Virus record (IMG/VR): IMGVR_UViG_3300010158_000196
Span: 1-34,017 of that record
Source: a virus
Length of the DNA stretch: 34,017 nt
Direction: 5' to 3' (one strand)
The translations under genes were made by a program, and so were the position numbers. The notes under the pieces are model-generated. The model made no database searches, was not told where the DNA came from, and saw only the letters and a program-made list of their open reading frames with translations. Below are positions 1,850 to 28,959 of the stretch, one piece after another (position 1 is the first letter of the stretch; each line of letters opens with the position of its first letter).

Positions 1850-2269
1850 TTAGATGAAAGCTTTAATAGCCCTGGGATCGCCTGTCACTCGGCCAATAAT
1901 CTCATGGTCATTAAAGAACGTAAACAGCGCCTTGCCTTTTGCGCTGCCATCTTCAAAGTCAATCTCCCAGCGATCGCCGCCCCACTTTGGCACGCGAACG
2001 TAATCACCAACTTGGCACCACACGCCTTCAGGCCATGGTTCCATAGTGTCTCGCTTTTTGAACGCAATAGGTCCAACAGCCAAGACTTTACCGATCATGG
2101 TATTCCACTTCTCGGTTTCTTTCGATTCTTCTGGGATGTAAATGCCAGAACTCGTCACCTTATCTTTTACTGCTCTCAATTGCACGAGAACACGAGCACC
2201 GTACGGCGCCATAAGTGGATCGATTACTGGAAACGCTTCTTCAAGCGTTTGCTCTGCATCAAAGGTCAT
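1850..2269 (-). CDS. GroES-like co-chaperonin, 139 aa
   Basis: It resembles the 10-kDa co-chaperonin fold: PYGARVLVQL, a mobile-loop-like segment TSSGIYIPEES, then IGKVLAVGP, VGDYVRVPKWGG and a C-terminal NDHEIIGRV. GroES proteins are about 95-100 aa; this one has about 20 extra N-terminal residues and an insert around FKKRDTMEPWPEGVW. Phage co-chaperonins such as T4 gp31 cap host GroEL to fold the capsid protein; that role here is inferred from the capsid neighbourhood. The ATG at 2269 is preferred over an in-frame TTG at 2287. The gene overlaps the 61-aa gene upstream by 11 bases. Confidence 0.8.
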   Translation of the reverse strand: MTFDAEQTLEEAFPVIDPLMAPYGARVLVQLRAVKDKVTSSGIYIPEESKETEKWNTMIGKVLAVGPIAFKKRDTMEPWPEGVWCQVGDYVRVPKWGGDRWEIDFEDGSAKGKALFTFFNDHEIIGRVTGDPRAIKAFI

Positions 2270-2444
2270 CTCTTTTTTCCTCTTCAAGTAAGTTGTTGAT
2301 AATCTGCAAGGTTTCTTCCAAACCTGCGTGACGTCCTGTTAAGCGCAAATAACTTTCAAAAGTTGAGCAATGACCTTGCGCCATTGCATCAGCAATCTCA
2401 AACTGCTTTTGCTTAATCAGGTCTATAAGAACGCTAATTCGCAT
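2259..2444 (-). CDS. Small helical protein, 61 aa
   Basis: The ATG at 2444 overlaps the TAA of the preceding 114-aa gene by one base (TAATG), and its own end overlaps the co-chaperonin start, so it sits in a coupled chain. The product is short, largely helical and ends acidic-basic (LLEEEKRDDL). I recognise no domain. Short helical proteins of this kind often lie near portal genes in podovirus-like genomes, but the function is unknown. Confidence 0.65.
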   Translation of the reverse strand: MRISVLIDLIKQKQFEIADAMAQGHCSTFESYLRLTGRHAGLEETLQIINNLLEEEKRDDL

Positions 2445-17937: not shown

Positions 17938-18897
17938 ATGGCACACATGCTCGCAACTACCCTCACTGGCAAGTCCGCAATGGCTTACGTAGGTGATACC
18001 CCTTGGCACGGTCTAGGTCAAAAGCTAACCGCTGATTCTCCCATTGAAACCTGGGCCGAGGAGTCTGGCTTAGACTTCCAATTGGCAACTGCTGATGTGC
18101 AGTTTGCGCCTCCTGCTTCTGTGTGGAACGGCTTTAAGCCTCAGCACACAGCATTTCGTGGCAAGAAAGTCATGTACCGCACTGACAACGAGTTGCCTCT
18201 TGGTCTTGTATCTAGCCAGTACAAGATTGTGCAGCCTGTTGAAGTGCTGGAATTCTTTCGCGACATGGTTGGCAGCATTGCCCATCTGGAAACAGCCGGT
18301 GTGCTTCGCAACGGTGCCCACTACTGGGCCTTGGCACGGATGGATGGTGAGTTCAACCTGGCTGGCGATAAAGTCAACCAGTACCTGCTTCTAGCCTCAT
18401 CTGCAGATGGTTCTTTAGCAACACAAGCACGGCTAACATCTGTTCGCGTTGTATGCAACAACACGTTGCAACTTGCGCAAAAAGGCAAGGCTGAGGTTAG
18501 CGTCCGTCACAACTCGGTGTTTGACCCCGTCGCTGTTAAAACTGAGTTGGCCAATTTCAACGACGCATTCAAGGCCTTTGAGCATACCGCCAAGTTCTTG
18601 GCCGGTGTCAAAGTGTCCAGCATGCAAGCCCAGGCTGTATTCACCAAGCTCCTTGGCGGTGACGATAAGAAACCTAGCCGCGCAGCACAACGTGCATTGG
18701 CATTGTTTGACGGCGCTGGCATTGGTGCTGATCTTGAATCCGCCAAGGGCACAGCATGGGGCGCATTGAATGCAGTCACTCAGCTGATGGATTGGGAAAC
18801 AGCCCGCACAGGTGATGCGCGGCTGGCCAACGCGTGGTTTGGCGGCGGCGTAGCTATCAAGCAACAAGCTGTTCAAGACCTGTTGGCCTTGGCATAA
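17938..18897 (+). CDS. DUF932-family phage/plasmid protein, 319 aa
   Basis: The N-terminus (AMAYVGDTPWHGLGQKLT) and the following layout, with YRTDNELPLGLVSSQYKIVQPVEVLEFF and SVRVVCNNTLQLA, match the DUF932 phage/plasmid-like family. Its molecular role is not established; some annotations link it to recombination or DNA-binding. The length is normal. It has its own promoter-like box upstream and an intrinsic terminator directly after the stop, so it is a single-gene unit and probably strongly expressed. Confidence 0.85.
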   Translation: MAHMLATTLTGKSAMAYVGDTPWHGLGQKLTADSPIETWAEESGLDFQLATADVQFAPPASVWNGFKPQHTAFRGKKVMYRTDNELPLGLVSSQYKIVQPVEVLEFFRDMVGSIAHLETAGVLRNGAHYWALARMDGEFNLAGDKVNQYLLLASSADGSLATQARLTSVRVVCNNTLQLAQKGKAEVSVRHNSVFDPVAVKTELANFNDAFKAFEHTAKFLAGVKVSSMQAQAVFTKLLGGDDKKPSRAAQRALALFDGAGIGADLESAKGTAWGALNAVTQLMDWETARTGDARLANAWFGGGVAIKQQAVQDLLALA

Positions 18898-18963: not shown

Positions 18964-19479
18964 ATGAATGTCTTCTATCTTCACGATTGCGCCGCTGTTG
19001 CTGCAGGCATGCATTGTGATAAGCACGTTGGCAAAATGCTCATTGAGTCAGCACAAATGCTGGCCACAGCGCACCACCAACATGGCAACGGCGCCAATGT
19101 AACCTACAAGCCTACTCACGTCAATCACCCAAGCAACATCTGGGTGCGTTCTGGCAGGCTCCACTATGACTATGTTGTCGAGCTTGCCTTGGCCCTTGGC
19201 AGGCAGTTCTACGTCCGTTACGGCAAGCACCATAAAACGCAAGGCATTGTCATTGCCGAGCTTATTAAAGCGCCTCCTGCAATGTACAAAATGCCTTTGC
19301 TTTGGCAGCCGCCGCCCCTGGCCATGCCTGATGAATACAAGTCTTCCAACACCATCGAGTCTTACCGCCGCTTTTATGCTAGTAAAATCGAACGTATGCC
19401 AATGGTATACAACAAAGGCACTTCACTTCCACCCTATTGGCTGTCAGACATCTGGGCCAACAACCTGAAAGCAGCATAA
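18964..19479 (+). CDS. DKH-motif phage protein, pyrimidine dimer glycosylase-like, 171 aa
   Basis: The start MNVFYLHD...HCDKHVGKMLIESAQMLATAHH, then THVNHPSNIWVR, RYGKHHKT and AMPDEYKS, is a pattern of a common phage family often annotated as related to T4 endonuclease V-type pyrimidine dimer glycosylases. I see the family pattern but cannot confirm activity from residues. If real, it would repair UV damage in phage DNA, which fits a surface-water phage. It opens the replication operon and its TAA overlaps the next ATG by one base. Confidence 0.7.
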   Translation: MNVFYLHDCAAVAAGMHCDKHVGKMLIESAQMLATAHHQHGNGANVTYKPTHVNHPSNIWVRSGRLHYDYVVELALALGRQFYVRYGKHHKTQGIVIAELIKAPPAMYKMPLLWQPPPLAMPDEYKSSNTIESYRRFYASKIERMPMVYNKGTSLPPYWLSDIWANNLKAA

Positions 19480-19880
19480 TGTACGATAAAGTCCGTGAGT
19501 TTAGGCAAAAGCTTCAATTGCCTATTGGCGAAATACCTGCACTAATCCGCAGCGATGAAAGCTCTTACTTTTCAAGATTCATTCTTGAAGAGCTTAGTGA
19601 ATACATGCGTGCATGTGAGGAAGGCTCGTTGGTTGACGCTGCCGATGCGTTGGTAGATCTGGTTTATGTTACTCTAGGCTGTGCTCATGCAATGGGGCTA
19701 CCTTTTGATGAGCTCTTTGACATCGTGCATGCAGCAAACATGAAAAAGCAGCCTGCAAATGAGTTTGTTCGCAGCTTACGTGGCACACGCTATGACGTGG
19801 TTAAGCCTATGGGCTGGGTTCCGCCTGAAGAGGCCATGCAACGTGTCATCAACACGCATCTTATGAGGCATAACCCATGA
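19479..19880 (+). CDS. MazG/HisE-like nucleotide pyrophosphohydrolase, 133 aa
   Basis: It has the all-alpha NTP pyrophosphatase signature: EELSE (E-E-x-x-E) near residue 40, then DAADALVDLVYVTLGCAHAMGL with the metal-binding Asp residues, and FDELFDIVHAANMKK. These enzymes cleave (d)NTPs to monophosphate and pyrophosphate. Substrate cannot be read from sequence. In this genome, with a likely dCMP hydroxymethylase downstream, a dCTPase role like that of T4 gp56 is attractive, but the common phage MazG role is equally possible. ATG 19479 is used; the longer frame lacks a ribosome site. Confidence 0.8.
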   Translation: MYDKVREFRQKLQLPIGEIPALIRSDESSYFSRFILEELSEYMRACEEGSLVDAADALVDLVYVTLGCAHAMGLPFDELFDIVHAANMKKQPANEFVRSLRGTRYDVVKPMGWVPPEEAMQRVINTHLMRHNP

Positions 19881-20264: not shown

Positions 20265-21029
20265 ATGAGCAAAAATATCGTCGCTAAAACTGAAACCGCG
20301 CAAATCAGTTTGTTTGAAGACCAACTAGCCGCAATGGCTATGGACCATGTCAAGGCTGAGCAATCAACACTTGGCACAGCATTCCTGTCTACCAAAAGTG
20401 GTGTGCTAACCTACCGCGGCAACCCCATTGCCAACAACTCATTGGACTGCGTAATCCTTGCAGGCCCTATTGAGCGCTTGTACTATGACAGCCGCTATGA
20501 CCCCACCAAGATTGTCGCGCCAAAATGCTTTGCCATTGCAACTGTTGCAACCGGCATGGGGCCATCGGCAGCAGTCTCCGACCCTATGCGCAAAGAGTGC
20601 GAAGGCTGCCCTTGCAATGAATGGGGCTCAGCTGCTAATGGCGGCAAAGGCAAGGCATGCCGAGAAACACGCCGGTTGCTATTGCTGCCTGCTGATAGCA
20701 TTGCTAGCCCAGCCGCAGTCCAAGCTGCTGAGGTTGTCGCATTGCGTCCGCCTGTTACCAGCATTCGTGCGTACACAACTTACATTCAAACAGTTGCCGC
20801 TACGTTGCGCCGCCCTAGTTTAGGCGTGGTAACTACCATTGCAGTTGTGCCTGACGCTAAAACTCAATTCAAGGTCACCTTTACCATGAAAAGTGTAGTG
20901 CAGGATGCTGATGTGCTGAACGCCTTGATTACGCGTGGCACCAATGAAAGTCAGAAAGCCTTGGAGTTTACAAACTTTGTAGGCGATGACGCAGCCCCTG
21001 AAACGTCTGCGCAATCGACACGCTTCTAA
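20265..21029 (+). CDS. Zinc-motif replication-associated protein, 254 aa
   Basis: ATG 20265 has AAGGAC four bases upstream and replaces a longer frame from 20250. The centre has four cysteines in CEGCPCNEWGSAANGGKGKAC, about residues 112-132, that could bind zinc, and an earlier Cys in APKCFA. Phage proteins with this CxxCPxNxWGS...GKGKAC motif often lie just before the DNA polymerase. A single-stranded DNA-binding role is my inference from that place and the Ser/Thr-rich C-terminus. Its TAA overlaps the polymerase ATG by one base. Confidence 0.7.
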   Translation: MSKNIVAKTETAQISLFEDQLAAMAMDHVKAEQSTLGTAFLSTKSGVLTYRGNPIANNSLDCVILAGPIERLYYDSRYDPTKIVAPKCFAIATVATGMGPSAAVSDPMRKECEGCPCNEWGSAANGGKGKACRETRRLLLLPADSIASPAAVQAAEVVALRPPVTSIRAYTTYIQTVAATLRRPSLGVVTTIAVVPDAKTQFKVTFTMKSVVQDADVLNALITRGTNESQKALEFTNFVGDDAAPETSAQSTRF

Positions 21030-22846
21030 TGGAACCAATTTTCCTCGACTTTGAAACCGAGGGAATAGAAGCAAGGCCTAAGTACCCACCGGTGCCTGTA
21101 GGTCTTGCTATCTATGACCCTGAAGGTGAAATACGTGATGGCTACTACGCCTTCGGCCATCTGCACGACAATAACTCTACCAAAGACGAAGTTCATGAGA
21201 TACTCAAAGCCATTTTCTCGTCAACTCGGTCGATTTGCTTTCACAACGCTTCATTTGACCTGGACGTCGTTAACGTACATTTTGGGCTCAACACTCCATC
21301 GGCTGATAGAGTTAACGATACCCTTATTCTGGCTTTTCTGCATGACCCTCATACTCGATCTCTGTCTCTCAAAGACTTAGTTGTTACATGGGATATTGCA
21401 AAGCCAGATGAGCGTGATGAGTTGAAGGCATGGGTCATTGAGAACGTGCCAGAAGCAAAGAAGAAAAAGTCTACCTGGGGAGCATACATCTGTCGCGGTC
21501 CAGTTGAACTGGTGGGTCGCTACGCTATGGCTGACGTACGGCTTACTTCACAGCTTTATGACTTTTTGGCTTTAAAGGTTTTGCCTGCGCAGTTAGTGCC
21601 TTATCGCCGTGAAATTGAGCTGATACCCATGTTGCTTGAGAATTCAAGCTTAGGCATACGTGTAGATGTGGAAGGTCTTGATAAAGCAAAGTCACAAGCA
21701 GAAATAGACATTGCGCTTTGTAATGATTGGGTACGTGCATTGTTGGGGTCTTCTGAATTGAATGTTGATAGCGACCAACAGCTGGTCGAATGTATTTATC
21801 AATCAGAGCATTGGGACAAAAATAAAGCATGGCCCGCCACGGACAAAGGCCAATTACAAGCCACAAAAGAAGCATTTGATGAGATGCTTACCAACCTGGA
21901 GTTGCGCGATGTCCTCAGATTTAGAGCAAACCTTTCGACTTGTCTATCTACTTTTATTGAGCCGTGGCTACACGCCTCTCGTTCTACGGGTCGAATTTAT
22001 ACCAACTGGAATAGTGTCAGAGGTGAGCGTGGAGGAACTCGAACTGGGCGACTATCTTCCACACCAAATTTTCAGAACGCCCCCGTCAGGTATCCAGTAG
22101 TTACGTTGCCCAAAGATTTGCAGGTTGCCGCATTGCCTTTGATTCGTAGCTTTATCTTGCCTGATGAAGGCCACAAGCTTATTGCATGCGACTTTAATGC
22201 ACAAGAGCTTCGTATCTTTGCCCACTTTGAAGGCGGCAATCTTATGAAGCAATACCAGGTGGATGCACGTGCTGATTTGCATACTTACGCAGCAACAATG
22301 ATGACTGAAGCCAGTGGCAGACCTGTTAGTCGTACGTACTCAAAGGGCGTAAGCTTTGCGATTCTGTATGGCGCAGGCCCAGGCAAGATTAGTGATATGC
22401 TAGGCATTGATATGAACATGGCACGCACATTGGTGAATGCCTACACAACAGCTGTGGCGCCAGGGCTTAAGGTCATGCAGGCAACAATGCGCACGCGATA
22501 CAAACTAGGTGAGCCCCTTAAGACTATTGGCGGCAGGCTTGTCAAGATGGAGCCGCCTAAGGTTATTGACGGCCGCATCCGTGAGTTTGATTACAAAGGC
22601 GTCAATCTGCTGATTCAAGGCTCTGCTGCAGATCAAGCCAAGGCTGCAATGCTACTGTATCAAAAGACACGCAAGGATAGCAGGTTGCTACTTAGTGTGC
22701 ACGATGAGTTGGTCATTAGCGCGCCAATTGACGCACTTGAACGCGAGGCAGAGTGCCTAGTCAATGCAATGTGTAATGCGCTAACTATGGACGTGCCAAT
22801 GATTAGTGACTACAAAATTGGCAACAACTATCAGGAAACCAAATGA
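21029..22846 (+). CDS. Family A DNA polymerase with 3'-5' exonuclease, 605 aa
   Basis: This is the replicative polymerase. The exonuclease domain has motif I FLDFETEG (D7, E9), motif II NASFD (N73, D77) and motif III YAMAD (Y165, D169). The polymerase domain has TGRLSSTPNFQN (339-350), motif A ACDFNAQELR (D388), motif B RTYSKGVSFAILYG (R435, K439, F443, Y447) and motif C SVHDEL (H558, D559, E560). F443 is at the E. coli Pol I F762 position, not the Tyr of T7. No 5'-3' exonuclease domain is present. Length fits compact phage enzymes. Confidence 0.95.
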   Translation: MEPIFLDFETEGIEARPKYPPVPVGLAIYDPEGEIRDGYYAFGHLHDNNSTKDEVHEILKAIFSSTRSICFHNASFDLDVVNVHFGLNTPSADRVNDTLILAFLHDPHTRSLSLKDLVVTWDIAKPDERDELKAWVIENVPEAKKKKSTWGAYICRGPVELVGRYAMADVRLTSQLYDFLALKVLPAQLVPYRREIELIPMLLENSSLGIRVDVEGLDKAKSQAEIDIALCNDWVRALLGSSELNVDSDQQLVECIYQSEHWDKNKAWPATDKGQLQATKEAFDEMLTNLELRDVLRFRANLSTCLSTFIEPWLHASRSTGRIYTNWNSVRGERGGTRTGRLSSTPNFQNAPVRYPVVTLPKDLQVAALPLIRSFILPDEGHKLIACDFNAQELRIFAHFEGGNLMKQYQVDARADLHTYAATMMTEASGRPVSRTYSKGVSFAILYGAGPGKISDMLGIDMNMARTLVNAYTTAVAPGLKVMQATMRTRYKLGEPLKTIGGRLVKMEPPKVIDGRIREFDYKGVNLLIQGSAADQAKAAMLLYQKTRKDSRLLLSVHDELVISAPIDALEREAECLVNAMCNALTMDVPMISDYKIGNNYQETK

Positions 22847-25173: not shown

Positions 25174-25440
25174 ATGACCGTTACCAAAGAAGTCTCTACC
25201 GCTGTTAAAGAGCGCAAAGCACGTGGCCCCAATATTGACAAGGGCACTATCATCCGCATCAATGTTGCTGCTAACCCTAAGCGTGAAGGCACCCTTGCCC
25301 ATGCACGCTTTGCACTGTATGAAGATGGCATGAGCATTGAAGACTACATTGCTGCAGGTGGCCGTTCTAGTGATGTGCACTATGATCAGGCACGTGGTGA
25401 CATCTCTTTTGAAACTTCTGACGAAGCTGTAGCTGCGTAA
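25174..25440 (+). CDS. Hypothetical protein, 88 aa
   Basis: First gene after a promoter-like region, ATG 25174. The N-terminus is basic (VKERKARGPNIDKGTIIRINVAANPKREG) and the middle reads ARFALYEDGMSIEDYIAAGG. It has no recognised domain. Its TAA overlaps the ATG of the glycosyltransferase-like gene by one base, so it is coupled to the modification cluster. Confidence 0.7.
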   Translation: MTVTKEVSTAVKERKARGPNIDKGTIIRINVAANPKREGTLAHARFALYEDGMSIEDYIAAGGRSSDVHYDQARGDISFETSDEAVAA

Positions 25441-26327
25441 TGAACATACTCATCACGGGCGTCACAGAGACGCACATCAATTATCATGGTAGGGCAAGCT
25501 CTACCAAGTTCGTCTCTATCCCTGAAATGATGGCATCTGCGTATCGCGATTTAGGCTACAACGTGGCGCATCGTGCGGTAACTGTAGGTGAGGATCTTTC
25601 ATGGTTTGACGTCGTGTTTGTGTATGTGTATCCTCTGGATCATAACGCAATTTCCCATGTTGGGGCCACGTATGCACTGGAGGTAAGGCCGGATGCATAC
25701 GTGTGCCTTGACGATTGGTCATTTCAAGAAATTATGCCTACGTGGGCAAAAGTGATTGACTTGCAAAAGCTGCAATCACGTACATGGTTGGCGCCACTAT
25801 TTCCTTGGGGCGACGTAAATAAGATGGGTTTGCAGGTCAACCGGATTGTTGCATGGGACCCGTCGCCTTTGTATATCCCACCGCCAGTGCACCAATTGGC
25901 ATGGGGTCAGCGTAAGCAAGAATGGTACAACGCGTCCCTATCAACAGGGGCGCATCTATGGGCGACAGCGCAAAGTCTTACATGGCCCGTCAACTCCGTT
26001 GGGGGTAAACAGCTAGGGCAACCCCGCAAGCTTGAAAGCGATATTGTTTGGGAATACGGCTTTTACAAAGGCGTGCTTTGCCCAACATACACGCATGCAG
26101 GTTGCGGCTGGTGGCGTGTAAGATATTTGCATGCCAAGCTTGCAGGTTGTGTGCTTGGCGGTGATCGTATGGAGCTTGACGCCATTGGCCCAGCATATAG
26201 CTTTACATTGCATGAAATTGAATCCATGGATGATGAGATGCTAAAGCAACTGGTTGTAGGACAGCAAAAAGAATTGCTAACAGCGCCAAGATTCACAACA
26301 GTAAATATACTAAAGAGTCTTATATGA
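25440..26327 (+). CDS. Putative GT-B DNA glycosyltransferase, 295 aa
   Basis: The N-terminus MNILITGVTETHINYHGRASS with an alternating strand/helix pattern parallels T4 DNA beta-glucosyltransferase as I recall it (…INF…SSE…). VCLDDWSF (D91/D92) falls where that enzyme has its catalytic Asp in a TDIRLPF segment. The C-terminal region THAGCGWWRVRYLHAKLAGCVLGGDRMELDAIG (about 219-250) resembles the donor-binding helix of GT-B enzymes (R...EA.A.G), although the usual Glu appears to be His. It would add a sugar to hydroxymethylated bases. The ATGA overlap with the kinase-like gene and the hydroxymethylase-like gene beyond it support this. The family assignment is by eye and uncertain. Confidence 0.55.
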   Translation: MNILITGVTETHINYHGRASSTKFVSIPEMMASAYRDLGYNVAHRAVTVGEDLSWFDVVFVYVYPLDHNAISHVGATYALEVRPDAYVCLDDWSFQEIMPTWAKVIDLQKLQSRTWLAPLFPWGDVNKMGLQVNRIVAWDPSPLYIPPPVHQLAWGQRKQEWYNASLSTGAHLWATAQSLTWPVNSVGGKQLGQPRKLESDIVWEYGFYKGVLCPTYTHAGCGWWRVRYLHAKLAGCVLGGDRMELDAIGPAYSFTLHEIESMDDEMLKQLVVGQQKELLTAPRFTTVNILKSLI

Positions 26328-27268
26328 TCATCATTCTAGAAGGGCCTGATGGCTCTGGCAAAACAACACTTGCTGAAAAGCTACGTGCTGTTGTAAGTGA
26401 AAGCCCCGGCAATATGATGCATAGCGTTGCGCATGGGCCTTACGCAGGTTTGGATGCTGAACAACTTTGCAAACTGTACTTTCGGTCAATGTCGCCTGCG
26501 TTGACGTTTGATGATAGTCTTATCATGGATAGGTCATGGCTGTCGGAGCCTATTTACGCTGACGCGTATCGCAATGGTATTTCAAGAGTTGACATGCCTC
26601 GCCGCAGAATGCTTGAGCGCACTGCATTGTCACGTGGTGCTGTTGTCATACTTTGCCAGCCCGACTTTGAGGTGTGTGAGCAGGCATTCATGTCACGTAA
26701 AGCTGAAGAATATCTGGACAATGTTGACCAGTTACGCCAAGTTTACAATGATTATGAAACTTTAGATTTACAAACTCATTTGCCGGTAGTGCATTACGAT
26801 TACGTGCATGACAACTTTCAAGATTTGCTTGCACGAATTGAAAAAGTACGTATTGACAACAAGAGTGTAGGCGGCGGCGCATTTGTTGAAGGTAACTACC
26901 TTATGCTATGTGATAAGGGCCCGCAAATGAACGTTAAGTCATCTGCTGTGGTTGTCCCGTTTGTCAATTTTCTTGATAATGATGGCCCCAGCAGAATGCT
27001 GTCAGCAACGCTTGAGCAAGACAATGTTCCTGAAAATATGTTGTACTGGGCAAATACACAAAACGCTGCAGGCGCCCCTACAAGCCCTGACTTTATTGCG
27101 CAGCTTAAGCCGCGTAGGATTTTTGCTCTTGGCAATAACGCGTATGCCTGGGCACTGAATAACAACATCAAAGCAACTAAGCTTCCGCCGCCGTTGTATC
27201 ACATGCAAAACTACCCAGATCAACCCTATCACATTTTTGAGGATAACGATGGACCTAGCAGCAATTAG
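26324..27268 (+). CDS. P-loop dNMP kinase-like protein fused to a UDG-like domain, 314 aa
   Basis: Residues 1-180 resemble thymidylate-kinase-type enzymes: P-loop GPDGSGKTTL (7-16), IMDRSWLSEPIY (DRS at 69-71), the lid-like SRKAEEYLDNVD and a C-terminal helix. Residues of about 188-300 form a second domain with LMLCDKGP, SRMLSATL, MLYWANT, KPRRIFALGNNAYAWAL and HMQNYPDQP, the layout of uracil-DNA-glycosylase folds (LKP..IFALG..A..., then a His in a late strand). The catalytic residues of UDG are not evident. With the next gene, the kinase may make hydroxymethyl-dCDP; alternatively it phosphorylates modified bases in DNA. Confidence 0.6.
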   Translation: MIIILEGPDGSGKTTLAEKLRAVVSESPGNMMHSVAHGPYAGLDAEQLCKLYFRSMSPALTFDDSLIMDRSWLSEPIYADAYRNGISRVDMPRRRMLERTALSRGAVVILCQPDFEVCEQAFMSRKAEEYLDNVDQLRQVYNDYETLDLQTHLPVVHYDYVHDNFQDLLARIEKVRIDNKSVGGGAFVEGNYLMLCDKGPQMNVKSSAVVVPFVNFLDNDGPSRMLSATLEQDNVPENMLYWANTQNAAGAPTSPDFIAQLKPRRIFALGNNAYAWALNNNIKATKLPPPLYHMQNYPDQPYHIFEDNDGPSSN

Positions 27269-28034
27269 CAATGAAGAAGGCCTTATCAATCTGTACTACG
27301 TTTTACGTGAGTACGGTGAATGGGCATCACCACGAGGCGAAACCACTCTTGAGATTGAAAACTTTGCCTACACAGTTGGCCCCTACGTGCGTTTCAACTC
27401 TTTCAAAGGCCGTAACTTCAATCTTAAGTATCTAAAGCGTGAGTTTGCATGGTACGTTAAAGCCAACCCGTACGATTTGTCCATCATGGAGCATGCAGCT
27501 CAATGGGGCAAGATTGTTGCCAATGGCAAACTTAATAGCAACTACGGCTCATACTGGTTTGGCAGACATGGCGTACGCAATATTGTCAAGCTACTAACTG
27601 AAGACCCTACCAGCCGTCGTGCAGTTATTCCAATGTACGGTACAGATGTTGACCACATGGACATAGACGCAAAAGATGTGCCTTGCACTATTGCCATTGA
27701 GTTTCGCATTCGCAATGGTAAGTTAAACGCTCGTGCCATCATGCGCAGTCAAGACATCTTGTGGGGCATGGCCAATGACATACCTACATTCTCGTTTTTG
27801 CAAGAAATCATTGCAGTGCTTTTAGACGTAGAGATGGGTAATTTGACTGTTACCGTTGGTTCTTTCCATGTTTATGTGCCTCGTATGGAAATGTTCCGTG
27901 AAATCATGGATAGCCATACATACGAAGTCCTCTCAGACATGCCACCTCGCATAGTAAAAGCCGAAGCTTTGGAGCTTATCAACTGCATCATCAATCCTAA
28001 ATACGAGTTCTCAAAATGGCTACTGAACGTTTGA
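27249..28034 (+). CDS. Thymidylate synthase family, likely dCMP hydroxymethylase, 261 aa
   Basis: ATG 27249 has GAGG six bases upstream and overlaps the kinase gene by 20 bases. Thymidylate synthase family residues are all visible and by chance share E. coli numbering: SRR (122-124), catalytic C146 (DVPC), R166/S167/D169 (MRSQD), H207 and Y209 (FHVYV). The dUMP-selecting Asn177 is Asp here (GMANDI, D177), the change that turns the family to dCMP. KLNSNYG (94-100) matches the T4 dCMP hydroxymethylase better than the usual LGPVYG of thymidylate synthases. Product is most likely 5-hydroxymethyl-dCMP; 5-methyl-dCMP is possible. Confidence 0.8.
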   Translation: MDLAAISNEEGLINLYYVLREYGEWASPRGETTLEIENFAYTVGPYVRFNSFKGRNFNLKYLKREFAWYVKANPYDLSIMEHAAQWGKIVANGKLNSNYGSYWFGRHGVRNIVKLLTEDPTSRRAVIPMYGTDVDHMDIDAKDVPCTIAIEFRIRNGKLNARAIMRSQDILWGMANDIPTFSFLQEIIAVLLDVEMGNLTVTVGSFHVYVPRMEMFREIMDSHTYEVLSDMPPRIVKAEALELINCIINPKYEFSKWLLNV

Positions 28035-28201
28035 ACGTGCGGCCTTCCGCTGAGCATGCGCTACGTACCTCCATTGCGGCAATGCTTCGCCAACGATACA
28101 CTTTGCCTGAAATCATTGAGGCTTTGATGTCTGTAAAGATTGAGCTTGTAAGTGTTGACAACTGGCAAAAAATTGCTGCTGAAGCAGACTTCAAACCGTA
28201 A
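28016..28201 (+). CDS. Small helical protein, 61 aa
   Basis: ATG 28016 overlaps the end of the hydroxymethylase-like gene by 19 bases. The product is helical and amphipathic (ALRTSIAAMLRQRYTLPEIIEALMSVKIELVSVDNWQKI). A helix-turn-helix is conceivable but not clear. It ends the modification cluster. Confidence 0.65.
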   Translation: MATERLNVRPSAEHALRTSIAAMLRQRYTLPEIIEALMSVKIELVSVDNWQKIAAEADFKP

Positions 28202-28266: not shown

Positions 28267-28959
28267 ATGACAAAAATCCATTGGACCAAAGCTGAAACAG
28301 ACACAGTGCTTTCAAACGCGCACTATCTTTTTGACACAAGTACCTACATGCACTTTGATGCGATTAAAGCAGCGCAAAAAGTGCTGCCTGTACACAGACA
28401 GCGGGCGTTTAACACCCACTCAGTTGCAAACACACTCATTAAAGAGCTTAAGTTGCGTGTGGCGCGGGGCGTGCCAAAGCAAAAAGCAATAGAACCACCC
28501 ACACCAGCCAATGCAGTGGCGCCAATGCCCACCAGTACACCCTGGGACCCTACTCTTGATGACCTAGTTCAAGCCGTAGCAAAGAAAATTGCTGGCACAC
28601 TAAAACATGCGATTGCTAATGCTGTTAAAGAGCTTGAGCATGAGTATGGGCTGCACAAGCATAGCTGTGAATACACAGCAACTGGCGTCAAAAAGAAACG
28701 TGTAGTCATCATTGGCTTGTTGAATGACCAAGTGCATACAATGCAAAAAGAGTTTAGCAATGACTTTGACATAAAGTGCATTGACACTGACCGCGCAATG
28801 GGGATGTCTCCTCCAGACGCTGATGCTTACTTGCTAATGAAGAACTTCATCAACCACCCGTTGTACCACAAGTATCAAGCATTCCCAAATCATGTGTTGA
28901 TTGATGGCGGCATATCATCTTTGCGGATGTGGTTCTACACTAAAGGCAAAGAGCTTTAA
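28267..28959 (+). CDS. Possible regulator, Myb-like N-terminus and DUF2325-like C-terminus, 230 aa
   Basis: ATG 28267 follows the operator palindrome. The N-terminus (HWTKAETDTVLSNAHYLF...AQKVLP) resembles a small Myb/SANT-like helix bundle, and residues of about 130-230 (KKKRVVIIGLLNDQVHTMQKEFSNDFDIKCIDTDRAMGM...ADAYLLMKNFINH) resemble the DUF2325 Rossmann-like fold. A linker rich in Pro/Ala and a helix (residues 75-120) join them. An operator at its own promoter would fit autoregulation. Its stop overlaps that of the convergent gene. Assignment is tentative. Confidence 0.55.
   Translation: MTKIHWTKAETDTVLSNAHYLFDTSTYMHFDAIKAAQKVLPVHRQRAFNTHSVANTLIKELKLRVARGVPKQKAIEPPTPANAVAPMPTSTPWDPTLDDLVQAVAKKIAGTLKHAIANAVKELEHEYGLHKHSCEYTATGVKKKRVVIIGLLNDQVHTMQKEFSNDFDIKCIDTDRAMGMSPPDADAYLLMKNFINHPLYHKYQAFPNHVLIDGGISSLRMWFYTKGKEL

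Follow-up and report, generated by a model that had tools for sequence, protein, structure and literature searches.

The linear virus fragment held in IMG/VR as IMGVR_UViG_3300010158_000196 (positions 1 to 34,017, i.e., 34,017 bp; hereafter the window) carries a compact five-gene operon that, together with an upstream gene for a pyrophosphohydrolase of the phosphoribosyl-ATP pyrophosphohydrolase (PRA-PH) type, probably encodes a cytosine-replacement pathway following the logic of phage T4, in which 5-hydroxymethylcytosine (5hmC) is made and then glycosylated, built from different parts. Relative to the classic T4 system, the sugar transferase is unrelated in sequence and the kinase is an unusual two-domain protein. 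An earlier note on this DNA, made from the sequence alone, had proposed that the five genes form a pathway that hydroxymethylates dCMP, phosphorylates and incorporates it, and finally glycosylates it in DNA; this logic seems largely right, but the likely dCTPase, the PRA-PH protein at 19437-19880, was missing from it. Our proposal draws on sequences, gene order, conservation, active-site residues and predicted folds, from which we infer all of the reactions. The proteins concerned are the following.

19437..19880, plus strand: 147-aa PRA-PH/MazG-like NTP pyrophosphohydrolase (PF01503), predicted dCTP pyrophosphatase
21029..22846, plus strand: family A DNA polymerase (PF00476, E 7.5e-54), which would need to accept 5-hydroxymethyl-dCTP (5hm-dCTP)
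25174..25440, plus strand: 88-aa protein with the motif NPKRxGTLAxxRFxLYxxGMTVxEYxAAGGRxGDIxYD
25440..26327, plus strand: 295-aa protein of GT-B fold (fold model) matching phrog_14998 of PHROG, predicted 5hmC-DNA glycosyltransferase
26324..27268, plus strand: 314-aa two-domain protein, dTMP-kinase-like at residues 1-178 and degenerate, uracil-DNA glycosylase (UDG) superfamily-like at about 185-305
27249..28034, plus strand: 261-aa thymidylate-synthase-family protein (PF00303) with a cytosine-type active site, predicted dCMP 5-hydroxymethylase
28016..28201, plus strand: 61-aa protein, absent from many intact cassettes and not a constant part of them

In the proposed scheme, the PRA-PH protein would hydrolyse dCTP to dCMP, clearing the unmodified precursor, and the thymidylate synthase (TS) homologue would use methylene-tetrahydrofolate to convert dCMP into 5hm-dCMP. 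The dTMP-kinase-like domain would then yield 5hm-dCDP, from which the host nucleoside diphosphate kinase would presumably make 5hm-dCTP for incorporation by the phage polymerase. Finally, the GT-B protein would move a sugar from a host UDP-sugar onto 5hmC in DNA, and the glycosylated product would protect the viral genome against CRISPR and restriction nucleases.

The five open reading frames lie, with intact frames, at 25174-28201 on the plus strand, and the coupling by overlaps described in the earlier note is present at 4/4 junctions: TAATG at 25438-25442 between the 88-aa gene and the glycosyltransferase gene, ATGA at 26324-26327 between the latter and the kinase gene, 20 nt at 27249-27268 between kinase and hydroxymethylase, and 19 nt at 28016-28034 between hydroxymethylase and the 61-aa gene. 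The hydroxymethylase has 261 aa when read from its ATG, and would have 265 aa if translation began at the TTG further upstream, at 27237. The earlier note had also proposed searching for the same neighbourhood in other phages, counting its failure to recur against the pathway, and the neighbourhood does recur. With the patterns used, scans of IMG/VR turned up 356 kinase relatives, in many cases distant kinases, and 100 glycosyltransferase relatives; 80 of each were kept. The order helicase-88-aa protein-glycosyltransferase-kinase-hydroxymethylase is repeated in dozens of contigs and, with the 61-aa gene and a gene for a 230-aa protein as optional additions at the end, is nearly universal among relatives. 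In 131/131 of the loci fetched that hold all three at full length, the glycosyltransferase, kinase and hydroxymethylase genes are contiguous, at most 60 nt apart; these loci represent 74 distinct DNA segments, counted as such because some contigs occur twice among the loci, and 72 distinct protein triplets. The arrangement is thus well beyond chance. The operon genes are moreover under purifying selection, as dN/dS against one relative (L010, 75-84% identical) is 0.06-0.17 for the glycosyltransferase, the kinase, the C-terminal half of the kinase, the hydroxymethylase and the 61-aa gene, and 0.36 for the 88-aa gene; values of the C-terminal half for L003 and L005, taken with coordinates out of frame, are disregarded. 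The contig of L010 (IMGVR_UViG_3300027747_000004) measures 110,994 bp, about twice the size of the 52-60 kb relatives, which may reflect concatemer formation, chimerism or a genome that is really larger.

The idea that the two small proteins both belong to the pathway found no support. The 61-aa protein has no relative in Pfam, PHROG or NCBIfam, and its gene is absent from many otherwise intact cassettes and is dispensable. The 88-aa gene lies directly upstream of the glycosyltransferase gene in most relatives and is only rarely absent, and its product has no relative in Pfam, PHROG, NCBIfam or PDB. In a divergent operon (L242, 260-4780), which encodes a 201-aa protein, glycosyltransferase, PRA-PH protein, kinase, D177 TS homologue and dCMP deaminase, the 88-aa-like domain forms the C-terminal part of the 201-aa protein.

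The 261-aa protein, which had been supposed to act on dCMP rather than dUMP, is a member of the thymidylate-synthase family (PF00303, E 1.1e-19, 71 bits against a cut-off of 24.3). Its best PDB relatives by phmmer are the CMP hydroxymethylase MilA (8.6e-19) and the T4 dCMP hydroxymethylase (3.9e-12). Its residue numbers coincide with those of E. coli TS, and its active site comprises C146, T147, R166, S167, D169, G173, D177, H207 and Y209, with T147 where TS has His and D177 where TS has Asn. The VPCT motif is present in 131/131 fetched relatives and D177 in 127/127 in which the motif was matched; D177 is also found in phages AXL3, PW916, ctUtU524, Xp15, Acinetobacter MD-2021a and Forza. According to published work, N177D switches the substrate from dUMP to dCMP, and in MetaGPA positions 147 and 177 are the two that discriminate best between contigs with modified cytosine and unmodified ones (PMC8670742). 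These residues, therefore, strongly argue that the TS homologue acts on a cytosine base. Erwinia phage FBB1 and Aeromonas phage 25 each encode an N177 thymidylate synthase beside the D177 copy in the same genome. The serine of the MRS motif is shared by the window enzyme and T4 gp42, whereas MilA has alanine, in line with what we take to be a preference for a deoxynucleotide substrate.

Ordinary nucleotide scavenging, in which the phage would simply encode a thymidylate synthase and a thymidylate kinase amid unrelated genes, is what database annotations would imply: in NCBIfam, thymidylate synthase and dTMP kinase are the best names, each match scoring well under its cut-off. Given T147 and D177 throughout the relatives and PDB matches that are CMP or dCMP hydroxymethylases, we find this hardly credible. 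A pathway of the uracil/thymine type, suggested by the dUMP hydroxymethylase/thymidylate synthase annotations of PW916 and AXL3 and by their dCMP deaminase, was likewise rejected, all of these phages carrying D177. The PW916 protein (L020, 3280-4098) is annotated as a deoxyuridylate hydroxymethyltransferase despite its cytosine-type D177; this annotation is probably wrong, and ours would correct it and others of its kind.

The product of the TS homologue would be the hydroxymethylated nucleotide, 5hm-dCMP. A different product, 5-hydroxy-dCMP, with the sugar linked directly through the C5 hydroxyl, would be expected of a synthase of the RB69/Mosigvirus kind. TS-family enzymes of this type exist and precede glycosylation, one being carried by RB69 (PMC13390438), and a directly linked pentose has been reported for phage Thanatos (PMC12838424). 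The RB69 homologue, however, reads MRSQN and lacks the following glycine, while the window enzyme, with D169 and G173, and T4 gp42 share MRSxD...G; a single RB69-type sequence enters this comparison. We regard the 5-hydroxy product as very unlikely.

The gene for the likely dCTPase lies outside the operon in the window. The PRA-PH protein (PF01503, E 1.8e-15) shares 46% identity over 84 aa with AXL3 gp30, the neighbour of the AXL3 kinase, and the gene is present in the window and in 10/10 tested relatives longer than 50 kb. In L242 it stands within the operon, between the glycosyltransferase and kinase genes, and phage ctpbd312, which lacks a PRA-PH gene, also lacks a TS homologue. The PRA-PH protein is therefore the natural candidate for the dCTPase, its family and linkage making specificity for dCTP likely.

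The N-terminal half of the 314-aa protein is kinase-like, as previously read from the sequence: it matches PF02223 (E 1.3e-6, 28.7 bits against a cut-off of 27), retains the P-loop and DR motif, and its residues 1-178 superpose on dTMP kinase 4s35 with Z 15.2 and a root-mean-square deviation (rmsd) of 3.2 over 166 residues (VIA-align, which for the whole kinase compared residues 1-179 only). It scores 35.2 bits on the dTMP kinase equivalog TIGR00041, below the cut-off of 83.25, and its fold and linkage suggest a 5hm-dCMP kinase.

The C-terminal half had been called UDG-like, a tentative reading whose profile support comes from older relatives. Residues 185-305 are modelled as an alpha/beta domain, and Pfam matches to PF03167 fall below the cut-off (E 0.0086-0.079; 16.6 bits at best and 12.5 bits for the window protein, against 24.3); a profile search of PDB gave no UDG for this half, and tblastn no match in phages. 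The homologous domain of AXL3, PW916, ctUtU524 and the loci L182 and L183 displays the UDG-like motifs VGE.F.E, PF, W.N, LG..A and HPQ, and hhalign aligns these older relatives with family-4 UDG (probability 73, E 3.1e-5, motifs collinear; unrelated profiles give E 0.31-0.36), whereas the window clade alone reaches probability 4 and E 0.0099; across the negative controls E is 0.3-0.9. The catalytic motifs GE/QxPG and HP(S) are replaced by CD[KR]GP and PPPL[YH]H in 70/70 distinct window-clade proteins, while the invariant Asn of W.NT/A is kept. The C-terminal half is thus probably a degenerate derivative of the UDG superfamily that lost its catalytic motifs in the window clade. Its dN/dS of about 0.06, with saturated dS, indicates strong purifying selection, and the domain must therefore do something, although, with these motifs gone, it would excise nothing. 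Most likely, and with low confidence, it binds a modified base, nucleotide or DNA without excision.

An active sanitiser that clears a deaminated base (5-hydroxymethyluracil or uracil) from DNA or the nucleotide pool, or else attacks host DNA, would find precedent in Brig1 and Brig3, UDG-superfamily enzymes that excise 5hmC or glucosyl-5hmC (PMC13160076), and support in the retained Asn and in the AXL3-type relatives, which keep GE..G and PHP motifs and whose neighbouring dCMP deaminase could supply 5hm-dUMP. Such a deaminase gene follows the TS homologue in AXL3, PW916, ctUtU524, L182, L183 and L242; it was not detected in the window, nor in 10/10 long relatives. With both catalytic motifs replaced throughout the window clade, this absence, and an L242 kinase that manages without any UDG-like half, we consider an active sanitiser quite improbable. 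Speculatively, the domain could be a fidelity module, checking or holding 5hm-dCMP against dCMP or 5hm-dUMP so that only the hydroxymethylated nucleotide is phosphorylated: ancestral forms beside the deaminase may hydrolyse the deaminated nucleotide, of which the window clade may have kept only the binding. The loss of the catalytic motifs coincides with the loss of the deaminase, which fits this idea, in few independent lineages; we hold it to be a doubtful one.

The last step of the pathway would fall to the 295-aa protein, a member of phrog_14998 (E 8.8e-16) without a sequence match in Pfam, NCBIfam or PDB. Its AlphaFold model (pLDDT 86) has a GT-B fold, the best-ranked matches being GT-B enzymes, in accordance with its description in the earlier note as glycosyltransferase-like. 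The best solved match in VIA-align is the T4 beta-glucosyltransferase (BGT) 1nzd (Z 16.8 over 277 residues at rmsd 4.0), with which the selenosugar synthase SenB is level (Z 16.7), and the T4 alpha-glucosyltransferase comes next (Z 14.5); the support from Foldseek is weaker (E 4e-4 to 2e-3). A D177 TS homologue occurs in 8/9 other phage records carrying the glycosyltransferase family (DSL-LC01, FBB1, Aeromonas 25, GMA2, GodonK, Sixama, Forza and ctIqW946), a count that has no all-phage background rate beside it and whose weight lies in the non-T4 records, since T4-like phages carry gp42 anyway. This co-occurrence points to 5hmC in DNA as the acceptor. In addition, an S-adenosylmethionine (SAM) methyltransferase fills the position of the glycosyltransferase in the AXL3-type cassette and a carbamoyltransferase in Xp15 and MD-2021a, so that this slot looks like that of an exchangeable decorator. 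Carbamoylation as in Xp15 was rejected for the window, as no Carbam_trans_C gene was detected in this fragment or in 10 long relatives by a search that did find it in Xp15 and MD-2021a.

The glycosyltransferase homologue adjoins a UDP-galactopyranose mutase in DSL-LC01 (L160, 4992-7128) and in FBB1 (L162, 1937-4062), and the donor in these two phages may be UDP-galactofuranose; we know of no precedent for galactofuranose as a DNA sugar. For the window this donor was rejected, as a mutase gene was not found there or in 10 relatives, and a host UDP-sugar is assumed for the same reason.

Outside the window clade, AXL3 links the shared genes to a phenotype. Its DNA resisted 35/37 restriction enzymes and was cut only by the two with A/T-only sites (PMC7504290), a pattern that fits modified C (or G) and ties the shared kinase, TS and PRA-PH core, but not the glycosyltransferase, to real DNA modification.

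Several points weigh against the glycosylated-cytosine pathway. The digests of AXL3 cannot tell modified C and modified G apart, and this phage carries a methyltransferase instead of the glycosyltransferase. In principle, a TS homologue bearing D177 might also work as a methylase or as a 5-hydroxylase of the RB69 type. The window's transferase resembles no characterised glycosyltransferase in sequence, SenB, which is no DNA enzyme, scores equal to BGT, and C48C1 carries the glycosyltransferase family but no detectable TS homologue. The window is a 34-kb fragment, and most of its longest relatives measure 52-60 kb, so that enzymes missing from the pathway are not listable either. A pathway that stops at hydroxymethylation, leaving plain 5hmC in the genome while the GT-B protein has another target (e.g., a virion protein or the cell surface), gains from the tie with SenB and the missing Pfam match, as the fold does not tell the acceptor. 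Nevertheless, the glycosyltransferase gene sits between helicase and kinase genes with overlapping junctions in the cassettes, it accompanies a D177 TS homologue in eight of nine unrelated phages even where the two are not adjacent, and the AXL3-type methyltransferase in its slot suggests a decorator position; we therefore regard hydroxymethylation only as unlikely and retain glycosylation of 5hmC as the probable outcome.

In T4, the glucosyl-5hmC pathway consists of the dCTPase gp56, the dCMP hydroxymethylase gp42, the dNMP kinase gp1 and the alpha-gt and beta-gt transferases. The window would share its logic, a D177-type TS homologue with MRSxD..G and a GT-B fold best matched by T4 BGT. In contrast, a profile search of the T4 and RB69 genomes gave no match to the window's glycosyltransferase family, the kinase is dTMP-kinase-like with a UDG-like extension, the candidate dCTPase is of the PRA-PH type, and the genes form a single compact operon in a podovirus-like phage. 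AXL3, PW916 and ctUtU524 (Axeltriavirus and relatives) carry a homologous kinase-UDG fusion (32-35%), a D177 TS homologue, PRA-PH protein, family A polymerase, exonuclease and helicase in similar order; they differ by the SAM methyltransferase and the deaminase, by their better kept UDG motifs and by being classed as siphovirus-type. The closest TS homologues by identity (37%, D177) belong to the 5-carbamoyloxymethylcytosine system (MetaGPA; Xp15 and Acinetobacter MD-2021a), and MD-2021a also has a PRA-PH-type hydrolase nearby, but the decorator there is a NodU-type carbamoyltransferase, unlike in the window and 10 relatives. Thymidine hypermodification phages (SPO1, ViI, M6 and HTVC023P-type pelagiphages) similarly have a TS-family enzyme near the family A polymerase, and some HTVC023P-type phages also have a glycosyltransferase (PMC9599517); their chemistry is on the thymine/uracil side, with aG/PT-pyrophosphorylases, whereas the window enzyme is of the cytosine type. 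Brig1 and Brig3 resemble the C-terminal half of the kinase in superfamily and in recognising 5hmC or glucosyl-5hmC (PMC13160076), but they are excising host defence enzymes, while the domain in the window shares a polypeptide with a kinase and no longer has the catalytic motifs.

If the proposed pathway is true, a large group of podovirus-like viruses not yet cultured would join the T4-like phages as bearers of glycosylated-cytosine DNA, phrog_14998 would gain a function as a new family of DNA glycosyltransferases, and new enzymes for reading or protecting 5hmC would become available. It would also help explain the restriction resistance of AXL3-type phages.

The podovirus-like character attributed to the genome is borne out by its portal and terminase, which fit a podovirus-like head. 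The best relatives of the portal are those of ctpbd312 (57%), Caulobacter phage RW (51%) and Roseobacter phage CRP-902 (36%), and it is 31-33% identical to portals of HTVC023P-type phages. These three head-gene relatives, which lack a TS homologue, also lack the glycosyltransferase. In contrast to the head genes, the polymerase and helicase resemble those of ctUtU524, PW916 and AXL3, all carriers of the sister cassette and the closest phage relatives of the family A polymerase; the genome is thus a mosaic. Scans for promoters (11 promoter-like sites, scattered on both strands, where shuffled sequences gave 6.3 +/- 2.2) and terminators (a count close to the shuffled mean) were uninformative. 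Directly 3' of the operon, a 230-aa protein is encoded at 28267-28959 on the plus strand and kept in many relatives, none of them annotated. A DUF932 protein (17938-18897, plus strand; PF06067, E 5e-52) is present in ctUtU524 too, and a GroES-like co-chaperonin gene (1850-2287, minus strand; phrog_3188, E 9e-9) lies downstream of the portal gene, a GroES-type gene being similarly placed in ctpbd312 and Caulobacter phage RW.

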